A stretch of 41,256 bases of DNA from a virus, in the IMG/VR virus record IMGVR_UViG_3300048549_000110, positions 1 to 41,256 of that record. One strand, 5' to 3'. Below the pieces are notes generated by a model that saw only the letters and a list, made by a program, of their open reading frames with translations, did no database searches and was not told where the DNA came from. The position numbers and the translations under genes were made by a program. Of this stretch, positions 13,198 through 14,553 are shown one piece after another (positions within the stretch are counted from its first letter, which is position 1; each line of letters starts with the position of its first letter).

Positions 13198-14019
13198 TTA
13201 ACTACCGAAGGTCAATGTTGCTGCACCATCGGTGATCACCTCTTCTGTACCGCCAGCAGACGTAATCTTGACGCGATACTTGTTGCCGTCCAGAGTGTCA
13301 GCAGCGAGACCACTGTAAGCAAGAGTTGCGGTCGTGAAGTCTGCATAGGTGATGCCAGTGTCAAGGGAAGCAGAGATGTTAGTCCAACGCTTACCGCTTG
13401 CTGTCTGACGTTGCCAGACATATGCAAGAGCACCAGGTGTGCCTGTGGTGGTGGTGGTAAGAGTAAACGTACCAGCGCCAGAGGAAGATGTAGAAGCAGC
13501 AGGTTGTACAGTGACAGTTACAGCAGATGCCACGTCGGCAACCACAGTATCGTCAGCGTCATCACCAGCAGCGCCAGCAGCAGCATGGACGAATGCTAAG
13601 CACTCTGCCTTATGCTTGGTGTCGCCAGCAGCAGTGGTGTATGTGCGATACAACCACCAACCAGGACCATTGATACCGCGAGACTTGTTCTCAGCGAGTA
13701 ACATCTCAGTGGTGTCAACGAATACAAGATCGTATGCATTGCTGTCACCACCCTTGACAACAAACTCAGCAACTGCCTTAGGGGCAGTCCTACGAACAGC
13801 ACCAGCGAGTGCAGCAGCAGTGCTACCTGCATATGCTTTGTGCAATTCGATTGTAGTTGTACTAGTAACTTGCTTAACAATGTAAGCGACGTTGGATAGT
13901 TCCAAGATGTCGCCTACAACTACGGTGTCTGCTGCATTCTTCGTAACAGTGGCGTCACCATTGGTGACCGCTACGTTGTTCGCGAAAGTTGCGGCATCAA
14001 TTTTTCCAAATACAGCCAT
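13198..14019 (-). CDS. Virion structural protein with C-terminal Ig-like domain
   Basis: A 273-aa protein with the Ala/Thr/Val-rich, beta-strand composition of phage surface proteins. The N-terminal domain MAVFGKIDAATFANNVAV, with SNVAYIVKQVTSTTTIELHKAY, is typical of capsid or tail decoration proteins. Near residue 180 a Thr-rich linker leads into an Ig-like domain (GALAYVWQRQTASGKRW ... LDGNKYRVKITSAGG). An exact T4 late promoter lies about 40 bases upstream and a ribosome binding site (AAGAGAG) before the ATG. It could be a head decoration protein like Hoc, or a tail component; which one cannot be decided. Confidence 0.8.
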   Translation of the reverse strand: MAVFGKIDAATFANNVAVTNGDATVTKNAADTVVVGDILELSNVAYIVKQVTSTTTIELHKAYAGSTAAALAGAVRRTAPKAVAEFVVKGGDSNAYDLVFVDTTEMLLAENKSRGINGPGWWLYRTYTTAAGDTKHKAECLAFVHAAAGAAGDDADDTVVADVASAVTVTVQPAASTSSSGAGTFTLTTTTTGTPGALAYVWQRQTASGKRWTNISASLDTGITYADFTTATLAYSGLAADTLDGNKYRVKITSAGGTEEVITDGAATLTFGS

Positions 14020-14054
14020 TGTTCTCTCTTAATTGAAGGGTTTGTCCTATAACT

Positions 14055-14062
14055 TATTTATA
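14055..14062 (-). promoter_or_regulatory. T4-type late promoter TATAAATA
   Basis: TATAAATA on the minus strand, 36 bases before the structural protein ATG, inside the T-rich tail of a terminator. Exact match to the T4 late consensus, recognised there by gp55 and clamp gp45. Confidence 0.8.
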
Positions 14063-14093
14063 AAAAGAAAGAGACCGACCCAAGGGATCAGTC
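14061..14093 (-). terminator. Rho-independent terminator overlapping a stop codon
   Basis: GACTGATCC and GGGTCGGTC form a 9-position stem with G-T pairs around a 3-base loop, followed by TCTTTCTTTTT. The TGA of the 67-aa gene lies in the stem. The T-run merges with the next late promoter. Confidence 0.75.
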
Positions 14094-14291
14094 TTCTTCG
14101 CGAGCAGCGATTGCTTTGGTGACAACTTCTAAAAGTTGATCGTCCATATCAGTCTTGGTCAACTTAACTGCCTTAGCAAGAATAACAAGACAGATCTCAA
14201 CAAGTTTCTCACCCAGTTCTTCATTGTCGGGTACCTTAGCAACAGCGTCAGAGATAATTTTCTTCGCTAGTGGGAGTAAAAATCCAAGCAT
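14088..14291 (-). CDS. Small helical hypothetical protein, 67 aa
   Basis: MLGFLLPLAKKIISDAVAKV... is an all-helical protein with a hydrophobic N-terminus and amphipathic helices (LVEICLVILAKAVKL). It is reminiscent of small phage proteins sometimes annotated as hypothetical or holin-like, but the hydrophobic runs are too interrupted for a sure membrane helix. Translation starts right after a 22-base perfect palindrome and no Shine-Dalgarno is visible. Transcript ends in a terminator overlapping the stop. Confidence 0.7.
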   Translation of the reverse strand: MLGFLLPLAKKIISDAVAKVPDNEELGEKLVEICLVILAKAVKLTKTDMDDQLLEVVTKAIAAREED

Positions 14292-14296
14292 GGTTT

Positions 14297-14318
14297 TATA
14301 GAGTAACGTTACTCTATA
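14297..14318. repeat. 22-base perfect palindrome
   Basis: TATAGAGTAAC and GTTACTCTATA are exact inverted repeats with no loop. It is the whole space between the 76-aa gene stop and the 67-aa gene start, 5 bases before the ATG. It has no T-run. It could be a protein binding site or a mRNA hairpin; CTATATA on the left edge also resembles the -10 elements of this genome. Confidence 0.8.
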
Positions 14319-14322
14319 TAGG

Positions 14323-14553
14323 CTAGTCTGCTGTGAACTTCTTATCTTTCATGTAACCCCACTTACCTTTGTGAAGGGCGCGTACACCTTTACTAGTTTT
14401 AGTAGGAGCATCATCAGATTTCTTCACAAAGTCTTTGTAACGCTTGCCATATTTCATGCGAGCGTCTTGTTCTTTGTGCTTCTCAGCGTCTGATGCTCTC
14501 TTCTTCATATACTTCTTATCAGTAAGCATTGAAGAAGAGATTTCGTTAATCAC
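14323..14553 (-). CDS. Small basic hypothetical protein, 76 aa
   Basis: Very Lys-rich, hydrophilic protein (DKKYMKKRASDAEKHKEQD, YGKRYKDFVKKSDD), without membrane or Cys residues. Composition suggests nucleic-acid binding or an internal head protein, as many phage head components are short and basic, but this is inference. Its ATG overlaps the stop of the 127-aa gene (ATGA). Confidence 0.72.
   Translation of the reverse strand: MINEISSSMLTDKKYMKKRASDAEKHKEQDARMKYGKRYKDFVKKSDDAPTKTSKGVRALHKGKWGYMKDKKFTAD

Follow-up and report, generated by a model that had tools for sequence, protein, structure and literature searches.

What could a long perfect palindrome do when it stands almost on the start codon of a small phage gene? 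The question was raised by a first-pass annotation of the window analyzed here (41,256 nucleotides, the whole record of virus IMGVR_UViG_3300048549_000110), which is part of a T4-like cyanophage. A sequence search confirmed the 22-base palindrome (TATAGAGTAAC/GTTACTCTATA; 14297-14318, no strand) as exact, and with an arm of 11 it is the longest uninterrupted perfect palindrome of the window, where two others have arms of at least 7 (8 and 7). The remark that it is rare by chance also held, as just 1 of 200 windows simulated with a first-order Markov model reached an arm of 11.

Three roles had been proposed for it: an operator for a dimeric protein, a cruciform, or an mRNA hairpin hiding the start. 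The last fits best, although without pairing to the AUG itself. We hypothesize, at a probability of about 0.55, that the palindrome encodes a small RNA hairpin located on the gene's own late-type promoter, where it times late expression.

Gene context and the late-promoter-like box

The gene behind the palindrome encodes 67 amino acids (14088-14291, minus strand; phrog_402, of unknown function, annotated in cyanophages as T4-GC 424). Of 50,697 phage records, 372 contain it; their names are those of Synechococcus or Prochlorococcus phages, cyanophages or, in one case, 'Marine'. An AlphaFold model of the protein, made without an alignment, has three helices (mean pLDDT 66.5). The gene is placed between DNA polymerase-uvsX-gp41 and primase-nrdA-nrdB, an order that would fit its presence on early/middle polycistronic transcripts; nrdA and nrdB are described as middle-cluster genes in phage P-HM2 (PMC5082946).

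Upstream lies a gene of 76 amino acids (phrog_12705; 14323-14553, minus), near the start of which a perfect inverted repeat, of 11 bp with 22 nt between its halves, was also seen (14497-14507/14530-14540). Between the stop codon of this gene (14325-14323) and the start of the 67-aa gene (ATG, 14289-14291), the palindrome takes up nearly all of the space. It is set off from the ATG by five bases, AAACC in gene sense, so that 'directly before a start codon' and 'fills the intergenic space' were nearly, but not strictly, correct; that the gene lacks a Shine-Dalgarno was borne out, none being visible in its leader. Right after the 67-aa gene is a terminator-like hairpin (14072-14094, minus), and no cistron would therefore follow the gene in any read-through RNA. 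The next gene downstream encodes a head protein (phrog_613; 13198-14019, minus) and served as a control for late-promoter leaders; its late promoter is TATAAATA (14055-14062, minus). The T-run of the terminator passes straight into this promoter (14055-14094, minus), and similar terminator-to-late-promoter layouts occur in several relatives (12 head-gene leaders inspected).

What the mRNA-hairpin proposal had overlooked is a promoter-type element under the left arm, and with it the prediction that a hairpin would be possible only in read-through RNA. One base after the stop codon of the 76-aa gene begins CTATATA (14315-14321, minus), a T4-type late-promoter-like -10 box by sequence similarity, which has four bases in common with the 5' arm of the hairpin. 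Every one of the 186 distinct leaders that we collected for the 67-aa gene has such a box (TATATA in 146, TAAATA in 39, TACATA in 1), and its end is always 19-30 nt before the ATG. Because it exchanges with TAAATA at the same position, we infer that CTATATA is a late promoter recognized by gp55. The T4 late promoter TATAAATA is reported to span -13 to -6 and the Aeh1 late box CTAAATA to start at -12 (PMC1524935), and the cyanophage late promoter is given as NATAAATA (PMC2984593). If T4 spacing holds, the last A of TATATA is at -6 and +1 would be 14309, the first base of the hairpin loop; the late RNA would thus lack the 5' arm.

ATAAATA is strongly strand-biased in the S-SSM5 and P-SSM4 pieces, as promoters should be (e.g., 16:0 and 18:0). 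CTATATA is rare in these pieces, and TATATA is rarer than ATAAATA/CTAAATA in S-SSM5, so TATATA could be another promoter class. The usual box of the 67-aa gene is TATATA, while ATAAATA/CTAAATA is used by the head gene downstream and by most other late genes in the S-SSM5 list.

A predicted hairpin confined to read-through RNA

On the minus strand, 5' to 3', the order is the 76-aa stop codon, CC with CTATATA, the 5' arm of the hairpin TATAGAGTA (14310-14318), whose first four bases are the end of the box, the loop ACGT (14306-14309), the 3' arm TACTCTATA (14297-14305), AAACC and the ATG (14291). The 34-nt RNA is predicted to form a 9-bp hairpin of -9.0 kcal/mol (z -5.2 against dinucleotide shuffles), and 0 of 200 shuffles fold as well. 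The RNA from 14309 to 14292 alone (18 nt), in which the 3' arm would be single-stranded leader, has no predicted fold (0 kcal/mol). Given the inferred start, the hairpin would therefore form only in a longer, read-through RNA (-9.0 kcal/mol with the 5' arm, 0 without), and the predicted cost of opening the leader is 14.6 kcal/mol in read-through RNA vs. 5.2 in late RNA. The antisense 34-mer folds better than the sense one (-11.7).

The hairpin ends 5 nt before the AUG, which is outside the stem, and sequestration of a Shine-Dalgarno or AUG in the helix is not found in the window. An intrinsic terminator at the palindrome was considered and rejected, as no T-run follows the stem (AAACC, then ATG); a terminator scan likewise found none there and one at 14094-14072.

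Hairpins in relatives and the readings they favor

The annotation had asked for copies of the palindrome and had made its conservation in near relatives decisive. In the window, which is the virus's whole record, it is single-copy with up to three mismatches allowed, and the exact 22-mer occurs in three IMG/VR contigs, all at the same locus of near-identical phages. Conservation is accordingly mixed: near-identical phages alone have the perfect 22-mer, but the next relatives still fold, L010 with one change that gives a G.U pair and L005 with a shifted right arm and a bulge. In S-WAM1 (L085) and L176 the arms are of the GAATA/TATTC type, with GAATA in the 5' one, and all four fold at -6.1 kcal/mol or lower. 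Elsewhere, unrelated-looking stems stand in the same place (e.g., L032/L060, L045, L048, L056).

Four IMG/VR scans and named records gave 326 sequences, of which 323 had a recognized leader (the start pattern missed L003, L245, and L248). These comprise 186 distinct leaders, which single linkage at 8 edits of 34 nt groups into 58 clusters, each represented by its commonest member. Some contigs were matched by more than one query and are counted repeatedly among loci, but not among distinct leaders. When the box was held fixed and the remaining leader shuffled 400 times, the 58 clusters had a mean minimum free energy (MFE) of -3.41 vs. -1.64 in shuffles (z -8.7), a value reached by 0 of 400 shuffles, and 19 clusters were individually at p < 0.05. 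The excess is found in TATATA leaders alone (39 clusters, z -7.3) and in TAAATA leaders alone (18 clusters, z -5.3). With one preset value each for the GC cut (0.29) and the Shine-Dalgarno pattern, it is largest in leaders without a Shine-Dalgarno and with a GC of 0.29 or more (23 clusters, z -9.5), marginal in those of lower GC (26 clusters, z -1.9, 19/400 shuffles), and weak in Shine-Dalgarno leaders (9 clusters, z -2.4, 8/400 shuffles). AT-rich phages are mostly without the hairpin. Four of the nine Shine-Dalgarno clusters (L012, L043, L197, L204) fold at -5.3 or lower.

Two other late leaders have no such excess: gp19, the tail tube gene (80 loci, 47 distinct leaders, 10 clusters), gave z +0.1, and the downstream head gene (184 distinct leaders, 29 clusters) z +1.0, with 0 clusters at p < 0.05 in either; under the 27-nt rule of the head-gene control, the 67-aa gene still gave z -3.5 (22 clusters). 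In a position profile over 56 loci, the leader window (-32) was 2.25 below shuffles and upstream windows at most 1.36 below, so that the leader stands out within -110 to +10. Values elsewhere are as high or higher, in conserved coding sequence (-2.68 at +20, -2.05 at +110) and at the terminator (-4.57 at +200), and since these match or exceed the leader, the profile alone is weak evidence.

In the 20 clusters with an MFE of -4 or lower, the 5' base is upstream of the predicted +1 in 128 of 168 pairs. The mean predicted opening cost in these clusters is 13.6 kcal/mol for read-through vs. 4.2 for late RNA. Because a longer RNA is always costlier to open, the 47 gp19 leaders were used as a control, with means of 6.8 and 4.1 kcal/mol. 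The unpaired fraction around the AUG (-4 to +6) is about equal in both RNAs (0.50 read-through, 0.48 late), suggesting an effect on ribosome landing rather than hiding of the AUG. Column covariation over the seven closest leaders was not significant, with 0 pairs changed on both sides and 238 of 500 shuffles reaching the score. Of the largest cluster, 38 unique short leaders were also aligned, but its members are predicted to fold in different pairing registers, and the alignment was therefore not taken to a pair count.

Alternative to a hairpin confined to read-through RNA, transcription might start upstream of the palindrome and the late mRNA carry the hairpin at its 5' terminus, as a stabilizing cap or a processing site. 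The stem contains neither a Shine-Dalgarno nor the AUG, which would suit such a role, and the psbA 5'-UTR of cyanophage S-PM2d is described as structured, near a gp55 site and proposed to affect mRNA stability (PMC5931967). This is likewise a cyanophage leader hairpin near a gp55-type box, but it belongs to another gene, has a 36-bp inverted repeat, and is read in terms of light-responsive mRNA stability (PMC5931967). However, T4 spacing puts the start in the loop and leaves the late RNA without a 5' arm, a sigma-70 scan of 13900-14500 found no second promoter-like box, and the gp19 and head-gene leaders have no hairpins. We consider this alternative unlikely.

That the palindrome arose by chance over an ordinary late promoter is slightly less likely again. 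The restriction of the perfect 22-mer to near-identical phages is what one would expect in that case, and so is the absence of a hairpin of -4 kcal/mol or better from 120 of the 186 distinct leaders (66 have one), but the rarity of an 11-base arm in the simulations and the excess of different hairpins in the same place across the 58 clusters both speak against it.

If the perfect palindrome were a promoter-overlapping operator bound by a dimeric repressor or activator, its center near the predicted start would be a classical position. Yet this reading fits poorly and is improbable: arm letters differ widely among relatives while the pairing potential is kept, and G.U-type variants such as L010 would damage a DNA palindrome. 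As the main reading it was rejected on account of the single copy in the window, within three mismatches, together with the changing arms, no conserved or repeated site being found. The least probable is a cruciform, or a hairpin in the melted promoter that helps or impedes formation of the open complex, because, although the DNA is symmetric over the predicted melted region and sense and antisense stabilities are similar (a split of 11 to 9), A-T-rich arms of 9-11 bp are short for extrusion, and the two control genes indicate that late promoters need no hairpin.

Known late-gene hairpins and a proposed timing switch

In T4 genes e, soc, 49, and I-TevI, a hairpin is described in early read-through mRNA, with a late promoter inside its 5' strand and the Shine-Dalgarno or AUG in the helix (PMC3014915, PMC2988022). 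The window resembles these in that a late-type box is in or beside the 5' arm, the predicted start is inside the hairpin, the late RNA would lack the 5' arm, and a presumed late gene stands among early/middle genes. It differs in having no Shine-Dalgarno, an AUG 5 nt outside the stem, and CTATATA as its box; its start site is predicted and its read-through presumed. Since helix sequestration is not found in the window, we regard it as a variant that may work like the T4 genes rather than as a member of their group. Three relatives come closer, as GAGG is partly inside the predicted stems of L012, L043, and L204, a partial Shine-Dalgarno sequestration.

Other late-box leaders were surveyed in the same way. 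In S-SSM5, 4 of 25 reached p < 0.05 (gp25, T4-GC 533, the 67-aa gene, and T4-GC 1038), and in the P-SSM4 piece 1 of 15 did, at an ORF inside a longer gene. T4-GC 1038, which lies after psbD in S-SSM5, encodes a protein of 708 aa with the annotation major head protein, and in its leader (L089:40430-40466) AATAAATA runs into GAGGGG...CCCCTC and then a T-run before the ATG. Among the 12 of 17 loci that reach the start (two being the S-SSM5 and S-SM1 records), 9 have this fused form and L338, L339, and L342 do not. As in the window, a late box (AATAAATA/CTAAATA) leads into a hairpin in S-SSM5 and relatives, with the predicted start inside. Unlike the window, the stem is GC-rich and followed by a T-run, and would therefore act as a terminator on read-through RNA. 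The form, which combines a promoter with a terminator-like element, is seen in L089, L331-L333, L335-L337, L341, and L343.

In the gp25 leader (L328/L327; S-SSM5 53885), a hairpin, TACGGG/CCCGTA (p 0.017), likewise comes after a late box; for T4 gene 25, a conserved stem at the initiation region has been described (PMC3014915). T4-GC 533 has no general hairpin: of its 49 distinct leaders (80 loci, 2 excluded because the match began inside the protein and 13 without a start found), 30 have a late box in range and 3 an MFE of -4 or lower. In the portions of the open-licence literature that we drew on, the psbA 5'-UTR hairpin is the one hairpin described with a cyanophage late promoter, and an earlier description elsewhere is possible.

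Taken together, hairpins that change their letters in many relatives suggest a timing switch like that of phage T4. Read-through RNA from the upstream replication genes would carry the entire hairpin over the ribosome-binding region, and this early/middle mRNA would be poorly translated. Later, the sigma factor gp55 would act at the CTATATA box, so that the first base of the RNA is in the loop, at about 14309; lacking the 5' arm, this RNA would have an open 18-nt leader from which the 67-aa protein could be made. The hairpin would thereby restrict a late gene inside an early/middle region to late times.

More tentatively, and at somewhat less than even odds, T4-type cyanophages may have a general, rapidly re-invented hairpin on the late promoters of stranded late genes. 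This reading covers translational as well as terminator-like hairpins in leaders without a Shine-Dalgarno, selected for structure rather than sequence, at late genes among early/middle genes. If true, the timing logic of T4 genes e and soc would extend to marine cyanophages and to leaders without a Shine-Dalgarno, and a regulatory structure would be retained while its letters turn over. It would also provide a testable account of how late genes inside early/middle regions are silenced, and a late box running into a hairpin would be a signature by which others, such as T4-GC 1038, could be found.
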